Below, one piece after another: positions 2,871 to 20,643 of a stretch of 21,618 bases of DNA (its first letter is position 1; each line of letters begins with the position of its first letter). Location of the stretch: positions 1 to 21,618 of the IMG/VR virus record IMGVR_UViG_3300025425_001035. The stretch is one strand, 5' to 3'. The translations under genes were made by a program, and so were the position numbers. Source of the DNA: a virus. The notes under the pieces are model-generated. The model saw nothing but the letters and a program-made list of their open reading frames with translations. It ran no database searches and was not told the DNA's origin.

Positions 2871-3366
2871 CATAAAAGAAAACTTTATTGACGCTTACTT
2901 TGTTGATGAAGATAGGCAAAATATTGAAATATTACAAAAATCAGATGACGGCAAAAAGATAATTCCTACTATCATTGCATTTGAAAAACCTGATGAAACA
3001 GGTAAAACTTCAACAGGCAATATGGAGATATTAAAAGAAGTGATGTCTGTAGATGAATTGCACGAAAGAACCTATACCAAAAAGAAAGACGAAAGAAAAC
3101 TTTTTGAAGACCAGGTTTTAAGAATTGCTAAAAAAGACGGAATGGTAATTGGTGAAACAACTAAACCAGAAGATTTGTTTCCTAGTGTTGTAAAAGCTAT
3201 TACAGATAATTTAACAAATGAAGACCATATTTTTGCATTGAAACTGGCATTGTTTGAAGTAGAAAAAATTAGAGATTCGGAAAACGCAGAATTAAAAACT
3301 GCCATGAGGCAAGGTAAAGATAAAACCGAAGTTTTAATTAATGCTTTAAAAATTATTGCTGAATAA
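2860..3366 (+). CDS. Unknown 168-residue acidic-helical protein
   Basis: I do not recognise this protein. It is highly charged and lacks a signal peptide, membrane segment or obvious catalytic motif. Residues 1-45 look beta-rich (FIDAYFVDE, IIPTIIAFEKP), while residues about 60-168 look mainly helical (LHERTYTKKKDERKLFEDQVLRI, then HIFALKLALFEVEKIRD and the final KTEVLINALKIIAE). The fold suggests a binding or scaffolding protein rather than an enzyme. A strong ribosome site precedes it and its first 11 bases overlap the epimerase. Its last 14 bases run into the end of the leftward glycosyltransferase gene, so two long transcription units converge here with no room for an intergenic terminator. 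Confidence 0.7.
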   Translation: MLTNIKENFIDAYFVDEDRQNIEILQKSDDGKKIIPTIIAFEKPDETGKTSTGNMEILKEVMSVDELHERTYTKKKDERKLFEDQVLRIAKKDGMVIGETTKPEDLFPSVVKAITDNLTNEDHIFALKLALFEVEKIRDSENAELKTAMRQGKDKTEVLINALKIIAE

Positions 3367-3919
3367 AGTAATCAGAGTACCAACCTGACCAACCTTTTTC
3401 TTGGAGGTGGTGCATTTGACCTAAGGTCACAATACTGTAATCAGGTTTCTTATATAGATAATCTTTAATTGAAGGACATACTTTACCGTATGTTTCATAT
3501 TCTATTTCTTTAAAATAAAACTCATCACTACCTTTATTGTATTTTTCTAAATACTCTTTCTCATTCGATTTAAATTTATCCCATATGTACGATACATCAC
3601 CTGTCCATGATACGATAGACGAGTTTAAAGGTGTATGAGCAGGTTCTCTCCACCAAGTATCATCTAATAATGTAAAGTATTTTCTTACCAGATTAGGTAA
3701 CTTATTAAATATAACAACATCTAAATCAAAGTATAGATTTTCACCGTCTTTAAACTTACTATACATTTGAAGTTTGTTAAACCAGTTGCCATATGGGTTG
3801 TCTTCAATAACTTCAAAACTGTCATACTTTAGACCTGAATAAGTGTCTATCATATGTTTTAAGTTATCTACATGCCAATCAGTAAATTTATCACCGAACT
3901 TACAACAAATTATTCTCAT
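3353..3919 (-). CDS. GT-A-type glycosyltransferase-like protein
   Basis: The 188-residue protein has a D65-L-D67 motif at the end of a hydrophobic strand (LYFDLDVVIFNKL), the DxD signature by which GT-A glycosyltransferases bind a metal and nucleotide sugar. The order of elements parallels the protein encoded at 4790-5530: W..KL..YSKF, then the DxD strand, then TWW with a nearby Arg, then NSSI and GDVSYIWDKF. The two therefore look like diverged copies. At 188 residues it is a minimal catalytic domain with no membrane segment. It is the last gene of the leftward run; its ATG overlaps the preceding stop (ATGA). Its 3' end overlaps the converging gene by 14 bases. Donor and acceptor are unknown. 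Confidence 0.7.
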   Translation of the reverse strand: MRIICCKFGDKFTDWHVDNLKHMIDTYSGLKYDSFEVIEDNPYGNWFNKLQMYSKFKDGENLYFDLDVVIFNKLPNLVRKYFTLLDDTWWREPAHTPLNSSIVSWTGDVSYIWDKFKSNEKEYLEKYNKGSDEFYFKEIEYETYGKVCPSIKDYLYKKPDYSIVTLGQMHHLQEKGWSGWYSDYFIQQ

Positions 3920-4797
3920 TTTATTTCTTTAATTTCAATACCTCTGTTTCTGAATGAATTGATTTTGAATTCAGCCTTTTCAGGTATGTTGTGAACATTA
4001 CCATAAGGGTCTTTTACTTGTTTACCACCTTGTTCAGTTAAACTAACAATCTCGGCCTTTCGCATTTTCTTGCCTTTTTTAATTTCACTAGGACTTATTT
4101 CTTGACCAGTAGTTGATATTCTTCCGCCATTACCAGTACCTATCATAAGTTCCGTTTCGTCTGACAAATATCTTTCAACACCTTCTTTCCCAAAACCAAC
4201 ACCTAATCCATAACATATTTCTTTTTTACCTGCTTTAACATCTTCTAATATGCCTAATCTTTTTTCCCAATAATCATTGCCATTTAAATCATTATGACTT
4301 TTATTACAACCTGTTTTAAAACCCATTTTAGAAGCTGCTCTCATAGTTAAACCAATTGCTATACCAATACTACAGTAAGCATTTTGCCATCTGTTTTTAT
4401 CTGTATTTACCTTTAGAGAACCATCAGCATTGCAGTTTAATTGACTGTCAGGTTCTTTTGCAACAAATAAAAAATAAACACTAGCGTTTGCTTGAGAGTT
4501 ACGCCATGTTGCTGGTGGATTTCTTCTATGTGTATAACCCCAAGTATATCTTGATATTTCTTCAATTACTTTTCTATCAGCTGTATAATACACATCATAA
4601 TAACCTTCATGTTGTTTTGATGGTGCATTTGTAGCTACCCATAATAATTCATTAACAATTTGAGTTCTTAGTTCATCATTAATTGTAAACCATTTATCGT
4701 GGTCCCAATTTCTTTGGCATTTTTGTATTTCAAGCATAGTTTTTCTTTCACTATCCCAATCATAAAACATATGTTTGATACTATCTTCTCTATCCAT
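3916..4797 (-). CDS. Nitroreductase-fold protein with C-terminal extension
   Basis: This 293-residue protein has nitroreductase-like features. WVATNAPSKQHEGYYDVYYT (residues about 53-72) matches the segment after the first helices where Ser/Lys contact FMN phosphate. YCSIGIAIGLTMRAASKMGF (141-160) matches the buried helix, and GFKTGC (159-164) leads into the flavin-side strand. The classic N-terminal RRSVRxF is replaced by QRNWDHDKWF at about 29-37, so flavin binding could differ. Residues about 220-293 form an extra basic tail (KIKSF/NRGIEIKEIK type) absent from ordinary nitroreductases. Family members reduce nitro groups, quinones or flavins, or act as dehydrogenases on cyclic substrates. 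It overlaps both neighbours (8 and 4 bases). Function in the pathway is uncertain; redox tailoring is the best guess. Confidence 0.65.
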   Translation of the reverse strand: MDREDSIKHMFYDWDSERKTMLEIQKCQRNWDHDKWFTINDELRTQIVNELLWVATNAPSKQHEGYYDVYYTADRKVIEEISRYTWGYTHRRNPPATWRNSQANASVYFLFVAKEPDSQLNCNADGSLKVNTDKNRWQNAYCSIGIAIGLTMRAASKMGFKTGCNKSHNDLNGNDYWEKRLGILEDVKAGKKEICYGLGVGFGKEGVERYLSDETELMIGTGNGGRISTTGQEISPSEIKKGKKMRKAEIVSLTEQGGKQVKDPYGNVHNIPEKAEFKINSFRNRGIEIKEIK

Positions 4798-5530
4798 TCC
4801 AATTATCCTTTATAAACTTTTGATTATATTTATGTATCGTGTTACCAACACCATTCATATGCACAACTTTGATTTTTTTATTAACTTCATCTAATATCAT
4901 GTAGTCTGTATTAAAGAGTTTTGAATATAGTTTATTCATCTCTATCATATCCTTTGTATTATCAGTATATTTGCCTAACCATTCTCTAGGTGTTTTGGTA
5001 ACTTTTATATTTTTTTCATGCATTTTCCAATTAACATAATTTTGTTCTCCATAATATTTGTAGTGAACATCACCATTGTTGTAATAGTGTGTTTGCCAAT
5101 ATTCAGGATTTAATGCAAAATCATTCCACACATAATCAAAATCACCAGACTTAAATTTATAGAATCCACCATTAACTTGTAATTTTCTAGGCCACCATGT
5201 ACCATAACTTACAAACTCATTATCAGATACGGGATAACCAATCAAGTCATCTATGTTATTTGTTATGATTTGGTCAATATCCATAATAATAATATCATCA
5301 CCAGGATTTTGATTAGCAAATTGAGAGCTAAAAAACTTTAACTTATGCCAATGTAATTTTATATTACTATGTTTGTTATAAGGCAATACAACATCAGCCT
5401 CTACATCTGTATCACTTAAACAAATAAATTCAAAAGGTAATGAAGTATTACTTTTTAAACTTCTATAAAGTTTAGAAACATAATCTGGTGTATAGATACC
5501 ATCAAAATAAACAGTACATATTTTAATCAT
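4790..5530 (-). CDS. GT-A-type glycosyltransferase
   Basis: The 246-residue protein opens with a GT-A-like first strand (KICTVYFDGIYTPDYVSKLYRSL), followed by FEFICLSDT, a segment often seen where the uridine is held. D84-I-D86 in IIIMDIDQIITNNI is the metal-binding DxD. Downstream NGGFYKFKSGDFDYVWNDF and a His-containing C-terminal segment (VVHMNG at about 223-228) fit acceptor binding. Overall this resembles small bacterial and phage glycosyltransferases that use nucleotide sugars. It looks related to the 188-residue protein at 3353-3919. It overlaps both neighbours by 8 bases. Substrates cannot be predicted from sequence; a role in building the same glycan as the other transferases here is inferred from the run of genes. 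Confidence 0.75.
   Translation of the reverse strand: MIKICTVYFDGIYTPDYVSKLYRSLKSNTSLPFEFICLSDTDVEADVVLPYNKHSNIKLHWHKLKFFSSQFANQNPGDDIIIMDIDQIITNNIDDLIGYPVSDNEFVSYGTWWPRKLQVNGGFYKFKSGDFDYVWNDFALNPEYWQTHYYNNGDVHYKYYGEQNYVNWKMHEKNIKVTKTPREWLGKYTDNTKDMIEMNKLYSKLFNTDYMILDEVNKKIKVVHMNGVGNTIHKYNQKFIKDNWNG
4827..4834 (-). promoter_or_regulatory. Weak internal late-promoter-like box
   Basis: Read leftward this is CATAAATA, matching the NATAAATA form of marine T4-like late boxes, 29 bases before the ATG at 4797. An AAGGA-type ribosome site lies between them. It is inside a coding region, so it may be chance or an internal booster for the last two genes of the run. Confidence 0.25.
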
Positions 5531-6368
5531 ATCTTCTCCAAACTAAATCAAAGTCTTTACTTATAGCGTGTACAATCTTTGTTTCTTCAGGTATAAATTT
5601 TTGAGTATCTAAAAAGTAATGCCATTGATTATCTAACCATTGTATGTTCACCTGATTTACTTTTGTTTTAAAAGAAAAGATTGTTTCATTATCATATCTA
5701 AACATATCAACAATATTATCAGGATATAAACCACCTCTGTCATTTCTTAGTCTAGTCATCATATCAATTACATCTCTAAATTTGCCAAAGTAATTTAGTT
5801 TTTGTATATCTTCTTTTCTGGCGCCTATGATACCTGTATTGATAACATCATTACTAGGATTTAAACCATAGTTTAAAAGCATGGCATGACAATTAAAGTA
5901 TTTTGCAGTAGGACTTCTTATACCTTGTACTGTATTGTAATCTTTTCTTACATGGTCATTGTTATTATAAACACATATACCTTTAGATAAGTCCCATGTG
6001 TCAAAAAAAGACTCGTTTGTTAATGGCACAGCGTCAAAGTCTAAGTATAATATCTCATCATATTTTTTAGATAACTCATATAGTAAATGTATCTTATAAA
6101 AATTGATTATTTCATAGCCTGTTAACTCAGGAAAATCAGATTTAAAATTCTTTTCAAATGATTGATAGTCTTCTTGTTCAAACATAATAAAATCAGCATC
6201 TATCTTATTGGCATAATGTCTCTTACAATCAATTAATTTCTTATAATGTTTTTTAAATGCATTAACAGTAATACTAGCTTTGTCTACCGTATCGTGTTGA
6301 TTTTTAGATTTGCCATAGTGCTCATCTGCTGGCACATCTACATATAAACTATAGATAACTCTATTCAT
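5523..6368 (-). CDS. GT-A-type glycosyltransferase
   Basis: This 281-residue protein contains YDEILYLDFDAVPLTNESFF, with D110-F-D112 as the DxD motif after a hydrophobic strand. Before it, KKLIDCKRHYANKIDADFIMFE forms an early helix and strand typical of GT-A enzymes. After it come VINTGIIGARKEDIQKLNYF (residues about 176-195), which resembles the acceptor-side N-x-G segment, and a late VHAIS. No membrane segment is present, so it should be cytosolic. It is longer than the other two DxD enzymes and its flanks differ, suggesting another sugar or acceptor. It overlaps its neighbours by 8 bases each. Confidence 0.75.
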   Translation of the reverse strand: MNRVIYSLYVDVPADEHYGKSKNQHDTVDKASITVNAFKKHYKKLIDCKRHYANKIDADFIMFEQEDYQSFEKNFKSDFPELTGYEIINFYKIHLLYELSKKYDEILYLDFDAVPLTNESFFDTWDLSKGICVYNNNDHVRKDYNTVQGIRSPTAKYFNCHAMLLNYGLNPSNDVINTGIIGARKEDIQKLNYFGKFRDVIDMMTRLRNDRGGLYPDNIVDMFRYDNETIFSFKTKVNQVNIQWLDNQWHYFLDTQKFIPEETKIVHAISKDFDLVWRRYD

Positions 6369-6948
6369 ATTTACCTACTAATAAAAACCTAGTGCCTCTA
6401 TCATCTTTTATTTCATCTTCAATTAAAACCTTTGCGTTGTCTGGTAATTGATTTTTAAATTCTTCAATATTATTAACACAATTAATGTGACCTTCAATGT
6501 TAGTCATATTATTAGATTGATAAGCAAAATAAGATTTAGTATCTAATTTTAATTCTTTCATAGGTCGCATATGTTCACACGAGGTATTAATTATTAAATT
6601 AGCGTTTTGTATTCTACCATTTCTATCTTTATGAAATACATCACTTGTTATAAAGTCAACATTTTTATAATGTTTGAATAATCTATTTTTAGCAATACTA
6701 ATTACTTTTTCATCTATATCTATTAAAGAAATTCTTTTTACTTCTTTAAATGCAGGTATTAATATACTACCATACCAACCACCTAATATAGTGATTTCAG
6801 ATTTTTTATTTACAATATTCAAATCTCTAATATAATTAATTAATATTTCTTTAGATTTAAACTGATTAGGACTAAAAGAATCTAATAAGTTTGAATTGTG
6901 TCTGGCTTCTGCCATTATATTTTTAAATAATTGTAGGTCTATATCCAT
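6361..6948 (-). CDS. SAM-dependent methyltransferase-like protein
   Basis: The 195-residue protein fits a class I methyltransferase. ITILGGWYGSILIPAF at about 52-67 stands at the SAM-binding motif I position, with GGWYG in place of GxGxG. SLIDIDEKVISIAKNRL at 74-90 has the acidic residue after the second strand that binds the ribose, VDFITSDVF at 97-105 is the adenine-side segment, and NLIINTSCEHM at 117-127 is motif IV. The NTSCEHM form with Cys, Glu and His together is unusual and may mark the substrate or metal site. It sits between a glycosyltransferase and a nitroreductase-like gene with overlaps of 8 and 10 bases. Methyl acceptor unknown: a sugar hydroxyl or carboxylate is a guess from context. 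Confidence 0.65.
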   Translation of the reverse strand: MDIDLQLFKNIMAEARHNSNLLDSFSPNQFKSKEILINYIRDLNIVNKKSEITILGGWYGSILIPAFKEVKRISLIDIDEKVISIAKNRLFKHYKNVDFITSDVFHKDRNGRIQNANLIINTSCEHMRPMKELKLDTKSYFAYQSNNMTNIEGHINCVNNIEEFKNQLPDNAKVLIEDEIKDDRGTRFLLVGKYE

Positions 6949-7622
6949 TTTATCACTTCATCAATAGGAGGTTTAATATCATCTTGTAATTCTCCTCTTT
7001 CTTCAAGGTCTTCATATCTATATCTATCTGAATAACCTAATGACATTAATAGTAAAGGTCTATATTTTACATAAGGTACATCTTTCCATTTATCTACACC
7101 TCTAGGAAAACAAGATGTATAAGAAACATCAATGCCTTTTTCCATTGCATACATTGTCATATTACTAATAAACATTCCTACTTCAATACATGCTGTATCG
7201 GCAATTCTTTCAACCCATTCAGGAAATAATTGTTCAGCAAAGTGACCTGTTTTAATTTGTCTTTCATAATATGGATTTGGTTTCTCACACACTCTACTAC
7301 TAAAAACTAATAGATATGAATTAAACTTTACATGTTCATAATAAGGATTTGCAAAACCTTGAACCTGTGAATTGTAACCATTTTTAACGGCGTCTTTTTC
7401 CATATTAGTATGATTCATAACAGATTTATTCCACACTTTTACTTTTTCCTCATGTTTGTCAGGTCCTAAAACATGACAATTGTAAGGCATAAAATTGTTT
7501 TTTGATGGTGTTGTTTTCCATGTTTTCCATAAAAGATTTTCAATTACTTCATATGGTGGATGTTTGTCAGTTTTATATTTTCTGACATGTTTTCTTTTTT
7601 CTAATAAATCAAATGTAGTCAT
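6939..7622 (-). CDS. Nitroreductase-family protein
   Basis: With the ATG at 7622 the protein has 227 residues; a longer form from an in-frame TTG at 7637 is possible. The ATG is preferred because it overlaps the carbamoyltransferase stop as ATGA, the usual arrangement here. LLEKRKHVRKYKTD matches the N-terminal RRSVRxF flavin-binding motif. TTPSKNNFMPYNCHVLGP matches the phosphate-side segment, and ACIEVGMFISNMTMYAMEKGI matches the core helix. VSYTSCFPRGVDKW and LLLMSLGYSDRY supply the late strands. Such enzymes bind FMN as dimers and reduce or oxidise small molecules with NAD(P)H. It is clearly the sister of the protein at 12846-13421 (shared PYN..VLGP, GMF and VSY..CF segments). Its redox substrate is unknown. 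Confidence 0.75.
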   Translation of the reverse strand: MTTFDLLEKRKHVRKYKTDKHPPYEVIENLLWKTWKTTPSKNNFMPYNCHVLGPDKHEEKVKVWNKSVMNHTNMEKDAVKNGYNSQVQGFANPYYEHVKFNSYLLVFSSRVCEKPNPYYERQIKTGHFAEQLFPEWVERIADTACIEVGMFISNMTMYAMEKGIDVSYTSCFPRGVDKWKDVPYVKYRPLLLMSLGYSDRYRYEDLEERGELQDDIKPPIDEVIKWI

Positions 7623-9100
7623 TTTCTTACTATCCAATCGTTAATTATTAATAGGTCTAATGATGTTCTTTTAAATGTTCTCATAGCCTGTTGAGGTGTT
7701 TCTACAATAGGTTCTTGACAATTGAAACTTGTATTAAGTAACATAGGTATGCCTGTGATTTTGTAAAACTCATTTATGATATTATAAAACTTCTCATTAA
7801 ACTCTTTATTGACAGTTTGTATTCTAGCAGTACCATCAACATGAGTAATACCAGGCACCTTATCTGTTTTTACTTTACATATTCTTGACATATAAGGACT
7901 AGGACTATTTGTATCAAAGTATTCTTTGTAATGTTCTTCTAATACAGCAGGTGCGAATGGTCTAAAATCTTCTCTCTTTTTAATCGTACTATTGATTATG
8001 TCTTTGATATTAGGATTGCGAGGGTCAGCTAATATACTTCTATTACCTAATGCTCGATTACCACTTTCTGATTTGCCTTGATACCAACCAACTATCTTGC
8101 CATCAGCAATAGATTGTGCTATTACTTTATAGTTAACTCTTTCATCACCTTCAAAATTATATTCATTACCAGCAAATGTTTCTGTTTTGTGAATATTATT
8201 ATTAATAGTATAATCGGCATGTTGATATGTACCTAATGCTTGGCCTTCATCACCAACAGCAGGTGGTATATAAACATTGTCATAATGTTTTGTAAACTCT
8301 TCATTAACATAACCGTTATATGCAACACCACCAGCAATACATAAGTTATCACAAGTCTTTAACGGATATACATGTTCTTTTATTTTATCAATAGTAAACT
8401 TTTGTAGTGTACAAGCTAAATCATTTATGTTGTCTAGTCTAATATGTTTGAAATGTTTTTGTTTCTTTTCTGTAATAGGTCCATCTAGTATTGTTTCAAA
8501 CACATCATAATAATATTGACTAAAATTACCATAACCTACTTTACCCATAAGTTTACTTGCACCTAATGTTCCAAAACCTGTTAGATTAGACATATGATTC
8601 CATAACCATCCGATTGGTAGTTTATCAGATAAGTCAATTAGATTTTGGTCTTTATCAAAGAATACACATCTGTACTTTGCACCTATACCGTCTATGGCCA
8701 GAATATCCGACTTATCAAAACCTGAATTTAAAAAGGCATATGTAGCATGTGATTGATGATGGTCTATGTAATAGATATTATCTTCAAAATAAAAATCCCA
8801 TAGTGTTTTAGGTTCAAAATCAAACACACCTTTTGGTAATAAGTCTTTACACATTCTTATACCACCAAGTGTATAAGTAAATGCCAGTACATCATCTGTC
8901 TTTTTAAAATACTCTTTTACAAACTCATTATTTAAACGATAATCAGCTGAGTTTAATATGTCTGATTGATGAGCATACGCTTCAGCGTGATAAGGTAGAT
9001 TGTGTTTAAATCTAGTTTCCCTCTCTCGTTGGTTGTGCCATACACCATCATATGTATTATGGTCGTGTAGATTTACGGCGACAGCGAATATCTTTCTCAT
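7619..9100 (-). CDS. NodU/CmcH-type O-carbamoyltransferase
   Basis: The 493-residue protein matches the carbamoyltransferase family, which moves a carbamoyl group from carbamoyl phosphate through an adenylate to a hydroxyl, as in NodU, CmcH and TobZ. The N-terminal Kae1-like domain has metal-binding H114, H115 and H118 (IDHHQSHAT), then AIDGIGAKYRC, GKLMGKVGYG-like ASKLMGKVGYG, and CIAGGVAYNGYVN with PPAVGDEGQALG. The C-terminal domain has SGNRALGNRSILADPR, REDFRPFAPAV, DGTARIQTV, LLNTSFN and EPIVETPQQAM, all hallmark segments. It is shorter than the usual 550-600 residues but keeps every block. It overlaps both neighbours by four bases. The likely acceptor is a sugar or other hydroxyl on the product built by this gene run; that is inference. 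Confidence 0.92.
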   Translation of the reverse strand: MRKIFAVAVNLHDHNTYDGVWHNQRERETRFKHNLPYHAEAYAHQSDILNSADYRLNNEFVKEYFKKTDDVLAFTYTLGGIRMCKDLLPKGVFDFEPKTLWDFYFEDNIYYIDHHQSHATYAFLNSGFDKSDILAIDGIGAKYRCVFFDKDQNLIDLSDKLPIGWLWNHMSNLTGFGTLGASKLMGKVGYGNFSQYYYDVFETILDGPITEKKQKHFKHIRLDNINDLACTLQKFTIDKIKEHVYPLKTCDNLCIAGGVAYNGYVNEEFTKHYDNVYIPPAVGDEGQALGTYQHADYTINNNIHKTETFAGNEYNFEGDERVNYKVIAQSIADGKIVGWYQGKSESGNRALGNRSILADPRNPNIKDIINSTIKKREDFRPFAPAVLEEHYKEYFDTNSPSPYMSRICKVKTDKVPGITHVDGTARIQTVNKEFNEKFYNIINEFYKITGIPMLLNTSFNCQEPIVETPQQAMRTFKRTSLDLLIINDWIVRK

Positions 9101-9918
9101 TTTAGTAACTTCCCATACTTGCTCATTGGAAAATGACCCTTAGGTTGCACCCATTCAGTACAGGTTTTGCAATAGTTCTCATACTTGAACAATCTAAAGT
9201 TCATCATCTTGTCTATGTTCTCCTGCGTTAGGTCAAAGGTTTTCGATAGTTCTTTATTATTAGCAAACTTCTTACTACAATGTACAATATGCCTTTTTTC
9301 AAAGTCGATAACTGGCACCATAGGAAAAGACGCACACATTTTACGGTCAATCTCAGCTGCCTGTATAACATCTGTAAACTCTGGTGACCTGCCATTAAAA
9401 GCCTTCCACATTGTATTCTTATGGTCTAATTTTTTGATAATCTCTGGATATTTGTCTTTGTATTTAAAATAGTTAGGTGTTCTAAGTACCACATTATAGT
9501 TGTTAAAGTCATTCTCTGGCACATAGTCAAAGTTACCTAATTTCTTAACTTCATCCTCATACCAATCTAGTATATTGTGTTCAACATATAATACATCTTT
9601 ATCTTCTAATATGTGAGGATATCTTTTACGAATAAATGAGTTAGATAATACTGAACAAACATGATTCGGATTCTTTTTAATTTCTGATATTACTTCGTCT
9701 AAATTTTTAATAAGACCTGGTTCGCCACCTAAAAGATTAACTCTAATTTTATATTCTTTTAAATATCCTAGAGTCTGTCTTAAAAAGTCCATATCTACAG
9801 TCAAGTTACGCATTTCTAAAGTGTAACTGGTACAATAGTGACAATCTTTATTACATGACATTGACATAAAGAAGTCTATTGCTAAATAATTTTCTTGTAT
9901 TTCTTTTAGTGTTTTCAT
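9097..9918 (-). CDS. Radical SAM enzyme with possible auxiliary cluster
   Basis: The 273-residue protein has the radical SAM CxxxCxxC motif at C22, C26 and C29 (CNKDCHYC), which holds the [4Fe-4S] cluster that cleaves SAM. NLLGGEPGL at 61-69 is the GGEP SAM-binding motif. Four more cysteines lie in the C-terminal third (C195, C214, C250, C253; the last two as YCKTC), resembling a SPASM- or twitch-like site for a second cluster. Such proteins modify peptides, sugars or other small molecules. The neighbours are a carbamoyltransferase and an unknown 95-residue protein, each overlapping by four bases. The 3' part is visibly richer in G+C than the 5' part, hinting at a different history. Substrate not predictable. 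Confidence 0.85.
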   Translation of the reverse strand: MKTLKEIQENYLAIDFFMSMSCNKDCHYCTSYTLEMRNLTVDMDFLRQTLGYLKEYKIRVNLLGGEPGLIKNLDEVISEIKKNPNHVCSVLSNSFIRKRYPHILEDKDVLYVEHNILDWYEDEVKKLGNFDYVPENDFNNYNVVLRTPNYFKYKDKYPEIIKKLDHKNTMWKAFNGRSPEFTDVIQAAEIDRKMCASFPMVPVIDFEKRHIVHCSKKFANNKELSKTFDLTQENIDKMMNFRLFKYENYCKTCTEWVQPKGHFPMSKYGKLLK

Positions 9919-13421: not shown

Positions 13422-13426
13422 GTTCC

Positions 13427-13434
13427 TATTTATA
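13427..13434 (-). promoter_or_regulatory. Late-type promoter box for the leftward run
   Basis: Read leftward this is an exact TATAAATA, the T4-like late promoter core. If spaced as in T4, transcription would begin near 13421, on the first ATG of the leftward run. It is the only good promoter candidate for about 10 kb of leftward genes. Confidence 0.6.
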
Positions 13435-13440
13435 TAAATA
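13433..13440 (+). promoter_or_regulatory. Late-type promoter box for the rightward run
   Basis: An exact TATAAATA shares two bases with the leftward box. Transcription would start near 13446, leaving a short leader with GAGGA at 13450-13454 and the ATG at 13461. It is the likely promoter for the eleven rightward enzyme genes. Confidence 0.65.
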
Positions 13441-13460
13441 GGAGGACATGAGGATTTGAT

Positions 13461-14078
13461 ATGAGTTATAATAGTTTATTATCTTTTGGTGACTTGATAC
13501 CTTTAAAATTAAAGTGTGATGTCAAGAAGTTATTTGACGAAACGGAAAAGTTCGTTTATCTAAAATACAATCCAAGAAAAGATATAGAAAGATATGGTCT
13601 AAGTATTACTAGTTTAGATGGCTCTCTAAACGGTGTAGATTTAGATTCAATAAAAGAATATAATAAAGAAAACAATACAGAGTATGATGAGTTATCCTTT
13701 AACAAGTTCACAGAGGTTTACCATACTAGTTCAGAAATACAAAAAATAGTAGAACCATTTAAAGACCATATTGGCAGGTCACATATACTAAGTTTACAAG
13801 AAGGTGGTTATTTTCCACCACACAGAGATTTGCCTGTTTATGTTGAACAACAAAATAGTTTGAGAATACTGGTACCTTTAAAAGGTTGTAATCCACCAGA
13901 TATGTATTTTATGTATGAAGATAAACCTTTACATTTCGAACATGGTAGAGCGTACTTTTTGAACACAAATAAGTCACACAATTTATTTTCTTTTAAAGGT
14001 AGTGAGATGATAGTATTAAATATTAAAACAAATGAAGAGGTCTATAAGATTATAGGTGACCTTTTCCAGGCTAGATAA
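13461..14078 (+). CDS. Fe(II)/2-oxoglutarate oxygenase-like protein (aspartyl/asparaginyl hydroxylase type)
   Basis: The 205-residue protein has a double-stranded beta-helix core in its second half. FPPHRD places H121 and D123 as the HxD half of the metal site; RILVPLKG at 135-142 is a core strand; HGRAYFLNTNKSHNLFSF supplies the distal H173. This resembles the small Asp/Asn beta-hydroxylase-like oxygenases common in marine phages. The Arg that usually binds 2-oxoglutarate a few residues after the distal His is not in its usual place (FKGSEMIVLNI), so co-substrate binding may differ. The ATG follows GAGGA by six bases. It is the first gene after the palindromic promoter and is related in type to the protein at 20017-20643. 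Target unknown. Confidence 0.7.
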   Translation: MSYNSLLSFGDLIPLKLKCDVKKLFDETEKFVYLKYNPRKDIERYGLSITSLDGSLNGVDLDSIKEYNKENNTEYDELSFNKFTEVYHTSSEIQKIVEPFKDHIGRSHILSLQEGGYFPPHRDLPVYVEQQNSLRILVPLKGCNPPDMYFMYEDKPLHFEHGRAYFLNTNKSHNLFSFKGSEMIVLNIKTNEEVYKIIGDLFQAR

Positions 14079-14081: not shown

Positions 14082-14086
14082 GTAAT

Positions 14087-14743
14087 ATGTGGTTAACAAT
14101 TTCAATATTAATAGGCATAGTGTGGTCTCAAATTATTTCACACTTTGGCGCTAGCATACTATTACATAGACATTATTGTCATAATCAATTCAAAGTACCT
14201 GTATGGTTTGAAAGAATTGGTTTAGCAATGTTAATGATAGCATGTATTAGAACACCAATAGGGTGGATTGCGAGTCACCGTATGCACCATACACACTCAG
14301 ACGGACCAAAAGACCCACACGCAGCTAAACATATAGGTTTCTGGAAAGTCTTATTGACTACATGGAATATTGAAAAAATACCTATGAAATATGCAAGAGA
14401 TTTATATAAAAATCCTAATTTAGTATTTTGTCATAAGCATTGGTTGAAAATACTAATAGGTGTAAATGTTGTTAGTTACATTATTTGTCCATATCTTTGG
14501 GTGGCCTTTTGTGCCGTACCATTTGTTTTTGCAAAAATAGGATTTGGACTATTGAACACAGTCGGACATAAAACACCAGGTGGCGCTAATGTACCTTGGT
14601 TAAATATGTTTATTGCAGGTGAAGGCTATCATAAAAATCATCACGAAAACTTTAAGAGAATTAGATTACATAAGTTTGATACTGGTGGTTGGTTAGCGGA
14701 GAGATTATTTAAAGATTATGAACCAAACAAAAGAAATACTTAA
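14087..14743 (+). CDS. Membrane fatty-acid desaturase (acyl-CoA/acyl-lipid type)
   Basis: The 218-residue protein has all three histidine boxes of di-iron membrane desaturases: HRHYCH at 27-32, HRMHH at 64-68 and HKNHH at 182-186. N157 with GH at 160-161 in NTVGHKTPGG is also typical. Hydrophobic stretches at about 1-20, 43-58 and 119-155 should span the membrane. The spacing fits the delta-9 type (SCD/DesC-like). These enzymes use O2 and an electron donor to put a double bond in an acyl chain. It is compact beside the usual 270-320 residues and has no fused cytochrome b5, so electrons must come from elsewhere. The gene lies eight bases after the oxygenase gene and overlaps the next by 26. 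Confidence 0.92.
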   Translation: MWLTISILIGIVWSQIISHFGASILLHRHYCHNQFKVPVWFERIGLAMLMIACIRTPIGWIASHRMHHTHSDGPKDPHAAKHIGFWKVLLTTWNIEKIPMKYARDLYKNPNLVFCHKHWLKILIGVNVVSYIICPYLWVAFCAVPFVFAKIGFGLLNTVGHKTPGGANVPWLNMFIAGEGYHKNHHENFKRIRLHKFDTGGWLAERLFKDYEPNKRNT

Positions 14744-15617
14744 AAACAATAAATTCGTAGATGTACCATTAATAAAAGATGTAAGATACCTTTTGTTAAA
14801 TCAAATAACGGCCTATGGTTATATTGCCAGAGGTACTGGTCAAGCTACCAATGAGTTAGATAAACTTGAATATGACCATAGAGAATGGGTCAAAGAGATT
14901 ATAGACCTATCAGATTTTCCTCATTTCTACTTCACTAACGGTACTACAGACGCAATACATCATTGGCGAATCACAGAAACTAGACCATGGCAAAAATTAT
15001 GTTATGGTGAATATCAATATATGGATATGATAGGACCGGAAGGAACAGTTTGTTGTGATGTACCAGGTCAATATATGAAAGATGGTCGTTCAGCATTGCC
15101 ATCTATCATAGACAAAGATAAACCTTTATACATTTCCATACCGTCAGCCGCTGATGGTAATTTTTTTAATCCACAAGAAAGAGGACCTATTGAGGCACCT
15201 GTAATATTAGATTGCACATATATTGGTGCAACAGATAAACAAAAAATAGATGTTCCTAAAAATACTGAACAAGTCTTTTTTAGTTTCTCAAAAGGATTTG
15301 GTGCAGTAGGTCAAAGACTAGGTTTAGTATATACAAAAGAACCACATCCAACTTTAGAAAGATTAAAAAGTGTAGAGTGTTGGAATTATAATGGTGTACA
15401 AACAATAGACTTATTAATAAAGAATTTTGCAGTAGATGATATGTGGAAAAAATATAGAGAAAAACAATTAGAGGTTTGTGAAAAATATAATTTTGAACCA
15501 TCTGACTGTTATTTTTTAGCAACAACAAAAGACCAATATTATAAGGAGAGAAGACGAATGAGATGGAATGATAATGCTAGAATTTGTATCACTCCACTAT
15601 TAGGAGATATTGAATGA
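14718..15617 (+). CDS. Fold-type I PLP-dependent enzyme (aminotransferase-like)
   Basis: The 299-residue protein shows a compact aminotransferase pattern. TNGTTDAIHHW at 73-83 is the phosphate-side helix start. VILDCTYIGA at 162-171 carries D165 at the ring nitrogen. FFSFSKGFGAVGQRLG at 187-202 has the Schiff-base lysine K192 and the R200 seen in class I/II aminotransferases. It is not of the DegT type found at 10199. Usual class I proteins have about 380-420 residues, so the small domain is reduced. An aminotransferase, decarboxylase or lyase role is possible. The start at 14718 overlaps the desaturase gene by 26 bases; the stop overlaps the next ATG (ATGA), which has a good AGGAGA at 15602-15607. 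Confidence 0.72.
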   Translation: MNQTKEILKNNKFVDVPLIKDVRYLLLNQITAYGYIARGTGQATNELDKLEYDHREWVKEIIDLSDFPHFYFTNGTTDAIHHWRITETRPWQKLCYGEYQYMDMIGPEGTVCCDVPGQYMKDGRSALPSIIDKDKPLYISIPSAADGNFFNPQERGPIEAPVILDCTYIGATDKQKIDVPKNTEQVFFSFSKGFGAVGQRLGLVYTKEPHPTLERLKSVECWNYNGVQTIDLLIKNFAVDDMWKKYREKQLEVCEKYNFEPSDCYFLATTKDQYYKERRRMRWNDNARICITPLLGDIE

Positions 15618-16438
15618 AACAAATATTAGACTATACGAAAAACGACTTTAAAGATTTAGTTACAAAGATTGTAAAAGATGGACAAGTTGTATTGCATGAA
15701 CAAAACCTAACACAACAAGAGTTGACCAAAGTTTGTGAGAGAATGGGTAATGTAGAAACAAATGACTACTTTATGAATCCTAAAGGCGCACCAGCAATTA
15801 GTATTGTGTCAGGTCAATTAGATAAAGATAAAAAACCAATAGGAATGTTCAGAGACCAAGAGTTACAATGGCATGCCAACGGAACAGGCAGACATGAATT
15901 CAAAGAAATATGTGTAGGTCTTTATTGTGTGTATGAATGTGTTGATACAGTTCTTTCCATAAACAATAATTGTGAAGCATTTGCAGGTCTATCAAATGAA
16001 AAGAAAGAGTTTTATAGAAACATAGATGTAAAACTTGACAATTCAGGACCTAGAGCTAGACTATGGCCAAAAGATAGTGACTATGAAGGAGTTGGTGAAG
16101 ATACTTTTAGGGTGGGTCAAGAACATTATCAAGAAACTGTTGATAGAAGACCTTTAGTAGAAAAACATCCTTTTGATGGTCGAGAGTATCTATACTTTAT
16201 GGTGCCTTACATAGTAAAAGCATTTACAAAAGATGGTACTGAAATAGAAGACTTTGAAGATTTTTATAATACATTATGGAACGATATGATTAAATCCAAG
16301 TATCAATATCATCATGTATTTAAAGTAGGTGATTTGTTGTTTATGGACCAACTAAATACAATTCATAGACGGTCACCTATTAAAGATAAAGACAGACAAT
16401 TATGGAGAACGGCATTTGATTACAGCAATTTCATTTAG
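15614..16438 (+). CDS. TauD/TfdA-type oxygenase-like protein with Asn in the metal motif
   Basis: The 274-residue protein follows the TauD layout. GMFRDQELQWHANGTGRHE at 77-95 is the first metal segment, and FMDQLNTIHRRSP at 243-255 holds the distal H251. RQLWRTAFDY at 261-270 holds the Arg that binds 2-oxoglutarate (R261 or R265). The first motif reads H87-A-N89, with AAC at 15878-15880, where TauD-type hydroxylases have HxD. Loss of that carboxylate occurs in Fe halogenases, where Ala or Gly leaves room for halide. Here Asn could mean altered chemistry or lost activity. The protein at 18054-18863 has the same change and about the same length, so the two are paralogues. Its ATG overlaps the previous stop. 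Confidence 0.8.
   Translation: MKQILDYTKNDFKDLVTKIVKDGQVVLHEQNLTQQELTKVCERMGNVETNDYFMNPKGAPAISIVSGQLDKDKKPIGMFRDQELQWHANGTGRHEFKEICVGLYCVYECVDTVLSINNNCEAFAGLSNEKKEFYRNIDVKLDNSGPRARLWPKDSDYEGVGEDTFRVGQEHYQETVDRRPLVEKHPFDGREYLYFMVPYIVKAFTKDGTEIEDFEDFYNTLWNDMIKSKYQYHHVFKVGDLLFMDQLNTIHRRSPIKDKDRQLWRTAFDYSNFI
16404..16407 (+). promoter_or_regulatory. Ribosome binding site supporting a TTG start
   Basis: GGAG lies eight bases before the TTG at 16416, inside the end of the preceding gene. It supports the TTG as the start of the FMN reductase-like gene over the later ATG at 16455. Confidence 0.5.
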
Positions 16439-16991
16439 TTATAGTGACGACTCTATGAATTATAGAGGTTTAAAATTAATGAATCATTTTTTAAACTTTG
16501 ATAATTTAGTAAAGATTAATTTACCTATTTGTAATGTCAATGGACCTGAAGGACAAACACCGGAAGAGTTAGATGATTTACATGTGAAGATTAAAGGTAG
16601 TGATAAACTAGTTTTTGCTATACCAGAATACTCTGGTCATTATAGTGTAGGATTTAAAAACTTTATGGATTGGTTAGTTGTAAAATCAAATTATAATGCA
16701 GACTTAGGTCAAGATTATTGCATTACAGATAAACCAATATATGTAATTACATTTACACCATCTAAAGAGGGTGCTGGTGACAGACACTTTGATATGACAA
16801 AAGAGTTAATAGAAAAGTTAGGTGGTAAGGTAAAGAAAATGTATGTAAAAAATGATTGTTGGGATAACTTAAAACCTGATAACTTAAATTTTGTTGAAAA
16901 AGAAAGTAAAGAAATATTAAGAAGTTCAATGAAAAATGAAGTCAACGGTTGGATTAAAAAATATAATGAATGGAATGATAAATGGAAATAA
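16416..16991 (+). CDS. NADPH-dependent FMN reductase-like flavoprotein
   Basis: The 191-residue protein has the flavodoxin-like fold of FMN reductases. The first strand and phosphate loop are ITAISFSYSDDSMNYRG at 2-18. LVFAIPEYSGHYSVGFKNFMDW at 65-86 matches the flavin-side P-x-Y-x-x-x-x-x-G-x-K-N-x-x-D-W segment. The start appears to be TTG at 16416: the first strand would be lost from the next ATG (16455), and GGAG lies eight bases upstream. Such enzymes pass electrons from NAD(P)H to FMN or to partner proteins. Neighbours include oxygenases, a desaturase and a peroxiredoxin, so it could serve as an electron supply. It overlaps its neighbours by 23 and 10 bases. Confidence 0.75.
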   Translation: MITAISFSYSDDSMNYRGLKLMNHFLNFDNLVKINLPICNVNGPEGQTPEELDDLHVKIKGSDKLVFAIPEYSGHYSVGFKNFMDWLVVKSNYNADLGQDYCITDKPIYVITFTPSKEGAGDRHFDMTKELIEKLGGKVKKMYVKNDCWDNLKPDNLNFVEKESKEILRSSMKNEVNGWIKKYNEWNDKWK

Positions 16992-17404
16992 AAGCTTTAT
17001 ACTACTTAAAAGATGGTCATATTAAATCATATGAATTAGATACTAATAAAACAATTATTATGTGTGGTATTCCTGGCGCATTTACTAGTGATTGCACATA
17101 TAAACATTTACCAGGTTTTGTAAACAACTTGCAATATTTAAAAGATAAAGGTATTGATAAGGTTGTATTTGTAGGTGTGAATGACGCTTATGTTATGCAT
17201 GAATGGAATAAATTACATGGCCATGAAGACATTGATAGTGTATCAGACCCATTGGCTAAGTTCGCCAAGTCTATAAAAAAAGATGTAGATTGGGGAGAAA
17301 GTTTTGGTGTAAGAAGTCACAGATATGCCTATCTTATTGAGAATGGAAAAATAACAAAAGAATTTAAAGACGCATTGATTGAAGGTATTAAAAAAGAATT
17401 ATGA
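16982..17404 (+). CDS. Peroxiredoxin (Prx5-type)
   Basis: The 140-residue protein carries PGAFTSDCTYKHLPGF at 31-46, the Prx5/AhpC-TSA active site with T35 and peroxidatic C38. VVFVGVNDAYVMHEW at 61-75 is a Prx5 hallmark, and R111/R114 in GVRSHRYAYLIENG fit the catalytic Arg. No second Cys suits a resolving role, so it should be of the 1-Cys type and need an outside thiol. It is a little short (about 160 is usual). It would reduce H2O2 or organic peroxides in the cytosol, which makes sense next to several O2-using enzymes and a flavin reductase. It overlaps its neighbours by 10 and 4 bases. Confidence 0.88.
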   Translation: MEIKALYYLKDGHIKSYELDTNKTIIMCGIPGAFTSDCTYKHLPGFVNNLQYLKDKGIDKVVFVGVNDAYVMHEWNKLHGHEDIDSVSDPLAKFAKSIKKDVDWGESFGVRSHRYAYLIENGKITKEFKDALIEGIKKEL

Positions 17405-18057
17405 TAAAAGGTATTGCTGAGTATCTTGACATTGACATTGATAAAGATTTATTTCTTTCAATGTATAATAAAGTTAAGATAGAAAACAATAATACATTTG
17501 GTAAAACTCCATTTGTTAGTTATTCTTTAGAAGAGAATAGAACAGGTAAACCTACAGGTTATGAAAAAGTATTTGACCCTATATTATCTCAACATAGAAA
17601 AGTACATACTAACTATCAATTCAGGTCGACAGGTTTTAATACAGCAGATAGTACAGAGAAAGATGTCTTTGCTCACACAGATATAGATTTAGATACTGAA
17701 CATCCAAATGGTTACAATATTGTTGTTCCTGTATTAGGCAATTCTCGTATAGATTATTTTGAAACTATAGATGAAGAAGTTTACTTACCAGAAAAAAATG
17801 CTCATGGTCATGCTTACTACCATGAATTTTATGCTCAGAAAGAATTGGGTCAAGGCACACCTGAATTTGAAAAGTTTTTGAGTAATAGAAAGATAGGTCA
17901 TATTATTGTTGATAAACCTTTATTAATACAAACCACCATTATGCATAGAGTGGTAGTTACAGAGGCGCCTAGATGTGCTTGGGTAACAAGATGGAATAAT
18001 ATACCTAAAGATGTAAGCTTTCAAGAATTTAAACAGAGGGTAGAAAATATATTATGA
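17401..18057 (+). CDS. Fe(II)-dependent oxygenase-like protein with complete HxD...H
   Basis: The 218-residue protein looks like a cupin-fold Fe(II) oxygenase. FAHTD at 90-94 gives H92 and D94; YNIVVPVLGNSRIDYFE at 105-121 forms core strands; IIVDKPLLIQTTIMHRVVVTEAPRCAWVTRW at 168-198 includes the distal H182 and R191, the probable 2-oxoglutarate contact. Unlike the two TauD-type neighbours, its carboxylate is intact. A His-rich insert lies at about 135-142 (HGHAYYH). It overlaps both flanking genes by four bases, and sits between the peroxiredoxin and the second TauD-type gene. The substrate is unknown; it does not group clearly with the other oxygenases here. Confidence 0.65.
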   Translation: MIKGIAEYLDIDIDKDLFLSMYNKVKIENNNTFGKTPFVSYSLEENRTGKPTGYEKVFDPILSQHRKVHTNYQFRSTGFNTADSTEKDVFAHTDIDLDTEHPNGYNIVVPVLGNSRIDYFETIDEEVYLPEKNAHGHAYYHEFYAQKELGQGTPEFEKFLSNRKIGHIIVDKPLLIQTTIMHRVVVTEAPRCAWVTRWNNIPKDVSFQEFKQRVENIL

Positions 18058-18863
18058 TTAATCCAGAAAAAATTGATGTACAAATTAAAGAGTTCTCAAA
18101 AGAACAATTGATTGATATATCTAAAGGTATACACAAACAAGGTGTAACAGTATTCTATAATCAAAAATTAAATGAAACAGAATATACAAATGTAATGAAG
18201 AAGTTTGGTGAGTGTGAAACACCTAATTTGTTTATGAATCCTAAAGAGTATCCAGAAATCTTTTTAGTTACAGGTAAAAAAGTAGATGGTAAAAAATTAG
18301 GCATGTTTGGTGATACAGAATTAGGTTGGCATTCTAACGGTAATTCAAGACATCTTATAGATAAAATATTGATTGCTTTGTATTGTGTAAAAGAAGATAT
18401 TAATACAACTTTAAGTGTTTGTAATACTCAACAACCTTTTTATGATATGTCTAAAGATGAACAAGAATATTATCGTTCAATTACAATTAGACTTAAATTT
18501 AAAAACAATACAATATACGATTTAGAAGAAGGCGACCCCGAGTTAGAGTTTATGAGTAAAAACAAAGGTAGTATTCGTAAGTTAGTTGGTCAACATCCAC
18601 ATACTGGTTTAGAATACTTTTATTTTCCTTATCATTTTATAACTAAAGCATGGCAAGGTAAAAAACAAATTGACGCTGAAGAGATGATTAATAAGTTAAT
18701 GCCTAAAATATTTAAATCACAATATCAATATCATCATATATTTAAAGAAGGAGATTTGTTATTAATGGACCAATTTACAAGTTTACACCGTAGAACACCA
18801 GTTATGGATAACAATCGTTTATTATGGCGAATAGCATCGGATTTTAAAAATGTCTATAAGTAA
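18054..18863 (+). CDS. Second TauD/TfdA-type oxygenase-like protein with Asn in the metal motif
   Basis: This 269-residue protein parallels that at 15614-16438 throughout. Shared segments include MNPKxxPxI near residue 61, GMFxDxEL then WHxNGxxRH at 92-100, LYCVxE, QYQYHHxFKxGDLLxMDQ and xHRRxPxxDxxRxLWRxAxDxxN. The metal motif is H93-S-N95, with AAC at 18336-18338, again Asn in place of Asp. H245 and R255/R259 complete the expected site. Keeping the Asn in both copies while other residues have drifted suggests that it is selected, not decay. The gene overlaps its neighbours by 4 and 14 bases. The two could act in turn on one substrate, or as a heterodimer. Confidence 0.8.
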   Translation: MINPEKIDVQIKEFSKEQLIDISKGIHKQGVTVFYNQKLNETEYTNVMKKFGECETPNLFMNPKEYPEIFLVTGKKVDGKKLGMFGDTELGWHSNGNSRHLIDKILIALYCVKEDINTTLSVCNTQQPFYDMSKDEQEYYRSITIRLKFKNNTIYDLEEGDPELEFMSKNKGSIRKLVGQHPHTGLEYFYFPYHFITKAWQGKKQIDAEEMINKLMPKIFKSQYQYHHIFKEGDLLLMDQFTSLHRRTPVMDNNRLLWRIASDFKNVYK

Positions 18864-19458
18864 AGAAGTGCCTTGGCCAAAAATCGTAACTGACTCTGGT
18901 GAAATACCCATGAAAAGAAGATATGCATTTAGAGATATGTCATATCTCGACACAATAGAAGCAAGACCTATTTTTGAAACACAATCAGATATAATAATTA
19001 AAAATAATTTCAAAGGTATTGTAGATATAGGTTGTAGGCATGGACCTATTAACGACTTTCTACATGAAAAGAATTACAAAGACTATGAGTATTATGGTTT
19101 TGATACATCACCTGAACCTATAGAGTTAGCACAAAAAAGATGGCCAAACTATCAATATGAAGTTAGAGATTGGGCAACATTAAAAAAGGTTAATTTTAAT
19201 GTCGATTGTATAATTTTTAGTGGTGTATTGTTATATGAAAAAGACCATTATAAAATGTTTACTAATATTATGAAATATTATAATTGTAATAATGCAGTAA
19301 TTCAAGAGCCTTATCACAATCAAAAGTATTACGAAGAAAGATTAAAATTAAAATCAATTACAAATGATATGCAACAATATAGTTTTTGGGAAGAACACAT
19401 TGTAGAGGCAGAAATTTTTTGTGGTAGAAGATTAGTCGCCCACGCTAAATTACTATGA
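18850..19458 (+). CDS. Class I SAM-dependent methyltransferase
   Basis: The 202-residue protein has a clear SAM-binding core: IVDIGCRHGPINDFL at 57-71 (motif I, DxGCxxG), YYGFDTSPEPIELAQKRW at 81-98 with D85 for the ribose, YEVRDWATL at 103-111, and IIFSGVLLYEKDHY at about 116-129 as motif IV and post-motif helix. The first 45 residues form a cap that would contact the substrate (MKRRYAFRDMSYLDT). It differs from the methyltransferase at 6361. It overlaps the TauD-type gene by 14 bases and the next gene by four. O- or N-methylation of the pathway product is the likely job; substrate unknown. Confidence 0.82.
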   Translation: MSISKEVPWPKIVTDSGEIPMKRRYAFRDMSYLDTIEARPIFETQSDIIIKNNFKGIVDIGCRHGPINDFLHEKNYKDYEYYGFDTSPEPIELAQKRWPNYQYEVRDWATLKKVNFNVDCIIFSGVLLYEKDHYKMFTNIMKYYNCNNAVIQEPYHNQKYYEERLKLKSITNDMQQYSFWEEHIVEAEIFCGRRLVAHAKLL

Positions 19459-20036
19459 TTGTAAAAAGATATTCAGAGGACCCCAATAAGTATTGGCCAA
19501 TGATTGAAAGGTTTAGACTACAGACCTTTGAAGAAGGTAATGATAGTTTAACACATAAGAAGTACAATCCAGATAATCCTGAAATAGAAACATGGTTAAC
19601 TTTTAAAGATGATAAACTAATATCTATATCAGCCGCCGAAAGTTCACACTATACAAATGACTCTGATATTGCAGTTAGAGTTTGTCGTTATCATATACTA
19701 AAAGAGTTTAGACATACTCATTGTGGTTTAATTATGGCTGAACACCAAATAAAGTGGGCAAGAGAAAGAGGATTTAAAATATTATATATCACACATGACA
19801 TAAGAAATAAAGCCATAAATAACCTATATCAAAGAAAAAAGATGATGACTGATAAAGAGTTTAAAAAGTTTATAACAGGAGAATGGTGGACAAAACTACA
19901 ATTAGAGAAAGGTTTTTTATTCACTACAGGAAAGATGTTACAATATGTGTATAGCATTAGACTACAAGGTGATTTTGATTGGCAACCTGAATCAGATTTT
20001 ATAATTAAAAGGAAACATGATGGACAAATTATCTAA
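19455..20036 (+). CDS. GNAT-like acyltransferase
   Basis: The 193-residue protein matches the GNAT layout. WLTFKDDKLISISAAESS at about 47-64 gives beta-4-like strands, and RVCRYHILKEFRHTHCGLIMAEHQIKWARERGFK at 75-108 fits the strand, acetyl-CoA pyrophosphate loop and helix (motif A). ILYITHD with NKAINNLYQRKK at 109-129 fits motif B. The loop lacks the ideal Q/R-x-x-G-x-G/A, so the assignment is moderate. Family members transfer an acyl group, usually acetyl, to an amine; an amino sugar from the DegT enzyme is an attractive but unproved acceptor. The ATG overlaps the methyltransferase stop as ATGA; the 3' end overlaps the next gene by 20 bases. Confidence 0.6.
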   Translation: MIVKRYSEDPNKYWPMIERFRLQTFEEGNDSLTHKKYNPDNPEIETWLTFKDDKLISISAAESSHYTNDSDIAVRVCRYHILKEFRHTHCGLIMAEHQIKWARERGFKILYITHDIRNKAINNLYQRKKMMTDKEFKKFITGEWWTKLQLEKGFLFTTGKMLQYVYSIRLQGDFDWQPESDFIIKRKHDGQII

Positions 20037-20643
20037 ACACAGTTTACCAACAGTAAAAGAATTAAATCTTAATATAGATTTGGATAAGTTAAGAAAGGCT
20101 ACAGACGAGTTGGCTGAAAAGTTTACAGATGTGAGGTCTGCTAATCCTATGTTATGTATGAACCATGAGGAGTTGGTCAAAAGTGTATATGATAATTTTG
20201 AACAAATCAATTTGACTACACCAAGTGAGATATTGCCACATACTACAAGTATAAAAGAAAGATTGAGAAGAAAAGAAGAACACCTATATAATATACCTAC
20301 ACCAGAATATACAGGTAGTTATTTTGAGGAGATAGTTACTCAATGTAAATCTCCAGCTAGTAGAATTAGAATTACAAAATTGGCACCAGGCAAAATGATA
20401 CCATGGCATGTTGATTATGATGTATCGTATGGGGTACGAGTTATTGTTCCTATCTATGGAGATACAAATGTTATTAATCTATTTAAAAGAGATAATAAAA
20501 TAGAAGCATATAATCTTAAAAATGGAGTTGCCAATTTCTTAAATATAGGTTATACTCACGGTGTCGTGTCTATGAGTAAAAAGGCTAGGTTAGCTTTGAT
20601 GTTTACATTAAATGGCACAAAAGACATAGAAAAACTATTATAA
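20017..20643 (+). CDS. Fe(II)/2-oxoglutarate oxygenase-like protein (aspartyl/asparaginyl hydroxylase type)
   Basis: The 208-residue protein has the full small-oxygenase site: MIPWHVDYD with H131 and D133, RVIVPIYGD at 141-149 as core strand, and NFLNIGYTHGVVSMSKKARLALMF with distal H181 and the 2-oxoglutarate Arg R191. It resembles the protein at 13461-14078 in domain layout but keeps the Arg that one lacks. Residues 1-95 are a helical N-terminal part with no clear relative. Two adjacent ATGs (20017 and 20020) can start it; AAGGA just upstream fits the second slightly better. It is the last gene of the rightward enzyme run, after which a late promoter and virion genes follow. Confidence 0.75.
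   Translation: MMDKLSKHSLPTVKELNLNIDLDKLRKATDELAEKFTDVRSANPMLCMNHEELVKSVYDNFEQINLTTPSEILPHTTSIKERLRRKEEHLYNIPTPEYTGSYFEEIVTQCKSPASRIRITKLAPGKMIPWHVDYDVSYGVRVIVPIYGDTNVINLFKRDNKIEAYNLKNGVANFLNIGYTHGVVSMSKKARLALMFTLNGTKDIEKLL

Follow-up and report, generated by a model that had tools for sequence, protein, structure and literature searches.

The island of 24 compact open reading frames (ORFs) at positions 3353-20643 of a 21.6-kb stretch of viral DNA (IMG/VR record IMGVR_UViG_3300025425_001035, 21,618 nucleotides in all, hereafter the window) consists of two gene sets that are conserved separately: 13 genes on the minus strand (13421-3353; module A) and 11 on the plus strand (13461-20643; module B), most of which overlap their neighbours by a few bases. 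On balance, we favour the interpretation that these are two independent, late-transcribed modules sharing one bidirectional promoter within the host recognition cluster (HRC) of a pelagimyophage, with module A directed at a surface glycan and module B at an oxidative small product. The enzyme activities, substrates, products and targets proposed below for both modules are predictions from sequence.

Genomic place and separate conservation of the two modules

Among 50,697 phage records, the sole near relative of the window was Pelagibacter phage Mosig EXVC030M (MT647606.1), which covered 83% of it with 82.7% nucleotide identity; the source of the window is a T4-like pelagimyophage. Mosig was examined over record positions 39,760-88,646 (48.9 kb). 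The match to the window starts where the VrlC baseplate gene of Mosig ends, the Mosig annotation places virion genes on both flanks (baseplate genes and VrlC upstream, further fibre genes downstream), and the right end of the window falls among fibre genes, so that the island has fibre genes on either side. A preliminary description had recorded 24 enzyme-like genes with virion gene neighbours, and both points were confirmed by these flanks, with the ORF list and the family searches. In the part of the published pelagimyophage comparison that treats the HRC (PMC7029224), this cluster is always located between VrlC and gp14, its site is hypervariable, and it holds fibres together with glycosyltransferases interpreted as modifiers of the host O-chain. 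The site of the window is this described HRC; its location and the general idea were therefore already known, and to that extent the earlier proposal of an undescribed system does not stand.

The order of module A is near-invariant in dozens of IMG/VR contigs (GTB2-SGNH3-DEGT4-s95-RSAM6-CARB7-NTR8-MT9-GT10-GT11-(NTR12)-GT13; names as in Table 1), in which the operon abuts g168-epim-fibB-fibA. The epimerase gene, which belongs to the upstream fibre transcription unit, is a syntenic partner of the module. We counted the members in 66 loci of at least 9 kb recruited through the carbamoyltransferase; the contigs are fragments, and all counts of presence and absence are approximate. RSAM6 was found in 64 loci, MT9 in 63, GT10 and GT11 in 62 each and DEGT4 in 56, and the module B genes PLP3, TAUD4 and AAH11 were found in 0, 0 and 1, respectively. 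Moreover, 12 of 14 large module A contigs, searched over their whole length, lacked TAUD8.

Module B has a core of five genes, encoding a desaturase, a pyridoxal phosphate (PLP) enzyme, TAUD8, AAH11 and a methyltransferase, which stay linked although their order and orientation vary. Of the distinct desaturase lineages (clustered at 95%), 16 had 6 kb of sequence on each side; in these, TAUD8 and MT9p were each present in 15, PLP3 and AAH11 in 14, FMNR5 in 13, PRX6 and DSBH7 in 9 and TAUD4 in 8. In one type of context the module adjoins an Mtd_N fibre gene that follows AAA-ATPase (CobS-like) and exonuclease genes; in others it adjoins ThyX with a cell-wall hydrolase, an NT5C-like gene or a terminase gene. 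The T4 gp23 gene was present on 6 of the 15 module B contigs searched, and a close carbamoyltransferase was lacking in several T4-like contigs with module B. Given these varied neighbours, orders and orientations, and the gp23 genes on the same contigs, the comparison indicates that module B is a mobile unit of T4-like phages that is not tied to virion genes. Co-conservation across marine relatives, which the preliminary description had anticipated, is thus upheld in that the genes do co-occur, but as two modules and not as one set. Further genes of the 2-oxoglutarate (2OG) oxygenase type recur near module B, two of which, when tested, were supported by Pfam (2OG-FeII_Oxy_3 and Asp_Arg_Hydrox), the others being recognized by motif only. 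QueC-like and radical SAM genes are also found close to some copies (L102:5550-6251, L152:10310-11422).

Among isolate phages, the five core proteins of module B matched only Mosig, except for a TauD protein of 25% identity in Prochlorococcus phage P-HM2, and tblastn searches of cyanophages gave no match for core module B genes other than TauD. From module A, RSAM6 and GT10 likewise had their sole isolate match in Mosig, whereas members of the carbamoyltransferase family are frequent in cyanophages. A scan of GTDB with a TAUD8 profile returned one 8.6-kb contig (L190, JABAAK010000084.1) of a Candidatus Paceibacter metagenome-assembled genome, with the order DES-PLP-TAUD8-MT-GNAT-AAH11, which is most likely a misbinned virus. 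We did not retain a cellular cluster as the parent of module B, this contig being the sole GTDB match; the scan relied on just two short peptide patterns and could have missed distant cellular relatives.

Late-type promoters and active-site features

Late motifs overlapping on both strands, as in the 39-bp gap that separates the operons of the window, are kept at five other divergent junctions (Mosig and contigs L083, L118, L122 and L123). The minus-strand copy in the window lies very near the first ATG, and the leader would thus be only a few bases long. The octamer TATAAATA stands just 5' of the first gene, as in T4-type late units. In Mosig, 8 of 12 TATAAATA sites were located 18-45 nt upstream of a start codon (binomial P ~1e-12 under random placement); the raw count of the octamer was not above chance, and its position alone is informative. 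Furthermore, TAAATA was present at most 60 nt upstream of the desaturase gene in 17 of 30 distinct loci (opposite strand, 2 of 30), and before each other module B gene in 0-2 loci, with the exception of AAH1, the first gene in the window. ATAAATA preceded GTB2, the usual first gene of module A, in 13 of 21 cases. Judging from these motif positions at the Mosig starts, the divergent junctions, the desaturase gene and GTB2, both modules are likely to be transcribed late, and the late-type promoter of the preliminary description is supported by position in Mosig and by the junction motifs of relatives.

In TAUD8, the W-H-x-D of the TauD/TfdA Fe(II)/2OG family is replaced by W-H-x-N in 48 of 48 sequences, and TAUD4 has H-x-N in 22 of 25. 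TAUD8 otherwise agrees with the family in its profile (PF02668, 6.5e-20) and in the arginine on the 2OG side; R255, R259 and the distal histidine are invariant. H-x-N was also found in the P-HM2 TauD (L191:1090-2148) and in another phage paralogue, and the aspartate is kept in a related paralogue (L144) and in four plasmid-borne cellular homologues. The desaturase has the HX4H, HXXHH and HXXHH boxes of its family (PF00487) and an extra histidine, with H27, H32, H64, H67, H68, H161, H182, H185 and H186 invariant. For PLP3, the predicted structure agrees with fold-type I (VIA Z 19.9, root-mean-square deviation 3.8-3.9 over 276-281 aligned residues), and Lys192 of an SFSK motif would be the Schiff-base lysine. 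TAUD4 was adjacent to the PLP type of the window (at least 55% identity) in 45 of 50 cases and to diverged PLP types in 0 of 29, which suggests that the PLP gene and TAUD4 are exchanged together.

Gene assignments and coding evidence

Pfam supports the assignments of the epimerase, GT8, carbamoyltransferase, radical SAM, DegT aminotransferase and nitroreductase proteins, and of the fatty-acid desaturase, two TauD proteins, FMN reductase, Redoxin, methyltransferase and GNAT proteins; two more glycosyltransferases were recognized through PHROG matches. At 1e-3, Pfam gave no match for the SGNH esterase, the GT-B protein, the two Asp_Arg_Hydrox proteins or the PLP enzyme, which were named from motifs, profiles, a fold model or the annotation of Mosig. 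No database match was obtained for the SGNH hydrolase, the GT-B protein and two nitroreductases, their names being taken from a motif, synteny or the Mosig annotation, and the PLP enzyme and DSBH7 (a double-stranded beta-helix protein) were assigned by fold models. In CARB7, both the N- and C-terminal domains of NodU/CmcH carbamoyltransferases are present (PF02543, PF16861). Well-aligning pairs of Mosig orthologues had dN/dS values of 0.06-0.31, and the genes are therefore real and under purifying selection. The exception was the PLP gene, with 37% identity to its Mosig counterpart and a dN/dS of 0.51, which is probably a replaced allele.

Table 1. Features of the window with coordinates and supporting evidence
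Feature	Position	Strand	Evidence and remarks
Nucleotide-sugar epimerase (just outside the island)	2142..2870	+	PF01370 4.8e-25; phrog_540; in 48/66 carbamoyltransferase loci
Glycosyltransferase GT13	3353..3919	-	phrog_1962 5e-5; 61/66 module A loci
Nitroreductase-like NTR12, variable member	3916..4797	-	Mosig annotation, 94% identity; no Pfam match
Glycosyltransferase GT11	4790..5530	-	phrog_1962 8e-11
GT8-type glycosyltransferase GT10	5523..6368	-	PF01501 1.3e-5
Methyltransferase-like MT9	6361..6948	-	PF01564 5.7e-5; 63/66 loci
Nitroreductase NTR8	6939..7637	-	PF00881 3.7e-12; not annotated at the corresponding place in Mosig
NodU/CmcH-type O-carbamoyltransferase CARB7	7619..9100	-	PF16861 2.1e-67, PF02543 3.4e-18; phrog_1601
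Radical SAM enzyme RSAM6	9097..9918	-	PF04055 1.6e-8; 64/66 loci
Divergent 95-aa protein s95	9915..10202	-	No family matches; place between DEGT4 and RSAM6 kept in relatives
Sugar aminotransferase DEGT4 (DegT family, PseC-like)	10199..11245	-	PF01041 1.8e-81; best NCBIfam PseC, under its cut-off
SGNH/GDSL-like hydrolase SGNH3	11229..11987	-	Motif GDSYTD only; 50/66 loci
GT-B-like protein GTB2, usual first operon gene in relatives	11965..12849	-	No database match; synteny
Nitroreductase-like NTR1, first gene here	12846..13421	-	Mosig annotation, 82% identity
Overlapping bidirectional T4-type late promoter TATTTATATAAATA	13427..13440	both	Within 39-bp divergent gap between operons
Asp_Arg_Hydrox-like 2OG oxygenase AAH1, accessory	13461..14078	+	Mosig annotation; HxD motif in commonest sequences
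Membrane fatty-acid desaturase, core	14087..14743	+	PF00487 1e-9; all His boxes
PLP enzyme PLP3, fold-type I, core	14718..15617	+	AF2 pLDDT 85; Foldseek E 1.6e-9; VIA Z 19.9; Lys192 nearly invariant
TauD-like TAUD4 with HxN, variable; travels with one PLP type	15614..16438	+	PF02668 1.6e-19
NADPH-dependent FMN reductase FMNR5	16416..16991	+	PF03358 1.1e-12
Redoxin/peroxiredoxin PRX6	16982..17404	+	PF08534 4e-19
DSBH 2OG oxygenase DSBH7 with HxD...H	17401..18057	+	AF2 pLDDT 87; Foldseek to JMJD5/KanJ/TYW5
TauD-like TAUD8, HxN replacing HxD, core	18054..18863	+	PF02668 6.5e-20; 48/48 sequences
SAM methyltransferase MT9p, core	18850..19458	+	PF13847 8e-8
GNAT acyltransferase, accessory	19455..20036	+	PF00583 9.7e-5
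Asp/Arg-hydroxylase-like 2OG oxygenase AAH11, HVD...H, core	20017..20643	+	Profile match to beta-hydroxylase 7v4f 0.004; HVD in all copies listed

The 95-aa gene, located between the aminotransferase and radical SAM genes in most module A copies and not so placed in Mosig, could encode a carrier, a partner or a peptide substrate. The Mosig protein paired with it has 24% identity and comes from another part of the operon; it was rejected as an orthologue, and its dN/dS was not used. The Mosig orthologue of GTB2 (Mosig_00083, L002:26219-27085, 84% identity) was deposited as a molybdenum cofactor enzyme, which is probably a misannotation, since the GT-B-like protein of the window matches no radical SAM family. 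In addition, Mosig carries on the 3' side of its fibre genes (L002:43912-48887) four annotated 2OG oxygenases, a ferrochelatase, a heme oxygenase and a phycocyanobilin:ferredoxin oxidoreductase, an odd set for a phage whose host is not a cyanobacterium.

Possible products and comparison with known systems

According to the interpretation that we favour, module A and the epimerase would make and transfer a short glycan bearing amino and O-carbamoyl groups: the epimerase and the PseC-like aminotransferase would shape an activated amino sugar, the glycosyltransferases would attach it, and the carbamoyltransferase, the methyltransferase and the SGNH enzyme would trim or cap the glycan. The target would be a surface structure late in infection, namely the fibre or tail proteins encoded nearby or a host envelope glycan. 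We lean slightly towards decoration of the virion or fibre over host lipopolysaccharide (LPS), because the operon tracks fibre genes and appears late, and no flippase or polymerase was seen in it. Module B would perform a self-contained oxidative tailoring of one acyl or amino-acid-derived scaffold, in which desaturation, PLP chemistry and successive oxidations by 2OG enzymes act together with the methyltransferase, and the FMN reductase and the peroxiredoxin provide redox support, to give a small product. We tentatively suggest that it could be a pathway of natural-product type that only viruses possess, carried by marine T4-like phages, site-mobile, late and equipped with H-x-N Fe/2OG enzymes; its product might be a small molecule or a lipid that is set free or installed as infection ends. 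Several points weigh against the favoured interpretation of the two modules. A carbamoyltransferase of at least 54% identity occurs in 5 of 14 module B phages, so that one module does not preclude the other; by itself, the desaturase could work on common lipids of the host; and a host LPS glycan, as in the published view, accounts for module A about equally well.

In this last alternative, which has a considerable chance of being correct, module A would alter the LPS or another surface glycan of the host to block superinfection and leave virions unmodified. It is consistent with the inference made from GT8 abundance and the lack of restriction systems in SAR11, in the HRC part of the published comparison (PMC7029224), and with the PseC-like aminotransferase and NodU-like carbamoyltransferase, which are typical of surface glycans. 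The tight synteny with fibre genes, the epimerase within the fibre unit and the late-type promoter argue against it. Moreover, a hydropathy scan of 22 island proteins, as a test for O-antigen synthesis or gtr-type conversion, showed a transmembrane-level peak in the desaturase only; the 12 module A proteins included in the scan had no such peak, so that no flippase, polymerase, lipid-carrier membrane protein or lipid-linked starter was seen in the window.

It is unlikely that module B hydroxylates tail-fibre proteins and that module A glycosylates the resulting hydroxyls. The Asp/Asn-hydroxylase-like and JmjC-like oxygenases, and several copies that adjoin an Mtd_N fibre gene, would fit this idea; however, other copies lie beside ThyX, cell-wall hydrolase, NT5C-like or terminase genes, and a desaturase, a PLP enzyme and an FMN reductase are unsuited to protein hydroxylation. 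A single system of all 24 genes that decorates the virion, as first proposed, is improbable: the shared bidirectional promoter and the adjacency in the window, Mosig and close relatives point that way, but this integrated system was rejected because the modules are distributed separately, TAUD8 being absent from most large module A contigs and module B recurring without a close carbamoyltransferase and in the thymidylate synthase, nucleotidase and terminase contexts described above. DNA hypermodification, in which modified bases would carry carbamoyl or glycosyl groups, is very improbable; clusters for it can also contain carbamoyltransferase, PLP, radical SAM and 2OG genes, but Mosig had no match for a thymidylate-synthase-type hydroxymethylase (PF00303) and the promoters are of the late type. 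A Tet_JBP search gave no match anywhere, controls included, and was uninformative. We give equally little credence to a pile of unrelated morons, which the hypervariability of the site in the published HRC comparisons (PMC7029224) would allow and which is contradicted by the co-occurrence of module B genes in shuffled order, the fixed synteny of module A and purifying selection.

Few biological entities in the sea are as abundant as SAR11 and its phages. If module A is indeed a conserved glycan operon linked to fibre genes, it would offer a handle on host recognition or sealing by these phages. Module B, if it is a phage-restricted oxidative pathway, would be a rare biosynthetic cluster kept by viruses only, and it is present in the cultivated Mosig (on HTCC1062); its H-x-N oxygenases would probe how far the iron-binding triad can change. 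No paper describing the module B gene set was found in a search that left most subscription journals outside. As far as the literature and databases searched can show, the division of the island into two modules, the fixed order of the module A operon, the restriction of module B to viruses and the enzymes with H-x-N seem to be new.

Among known enzymes, ScoE and related TauD-fold natural-product oxygenases gave a near full-length profile match to TAUD8 (E 3.5e-6). ScoE has H-x-D, in contrast to the H-x-N of TAUD8, and the match implies no substrate; isonitrile chemistry was not adopted, since the match is at the superfamily level and the iron motif differs. Cyanomyophages (Sullivan 2010, PMC3037559) are also T4-like marine phages with many 2OG oxygenases, carbamoyltransferases and TauD, and the P-HM2 TauD shares H-x-N, although it is only 25% identical to TAUD8 and the annotation around it contains no other module B gene. 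The HRC of pelagimyophages (Zaragoza-Solas 2020, PMC7029224) shares with the window its position downstream of VrlC and its fibres and glycosyltransferases, and radical SAM cassettes, a gene type also present in module A, are mentioned as variable; in its HRC part, that paper treats the region as hypervariable with O-chain genes, and the fixed module A operon and the module B set are not described there. Mosig differs from the window in lacking NTR8, TAUD4 and the 95-aa gene at its usual place, in its diverged PLP gene and in two extra small genes, and its deposited annotation gives no pathway. In both phages, nevertheless, the two modules occupy the same place in the same orientation.

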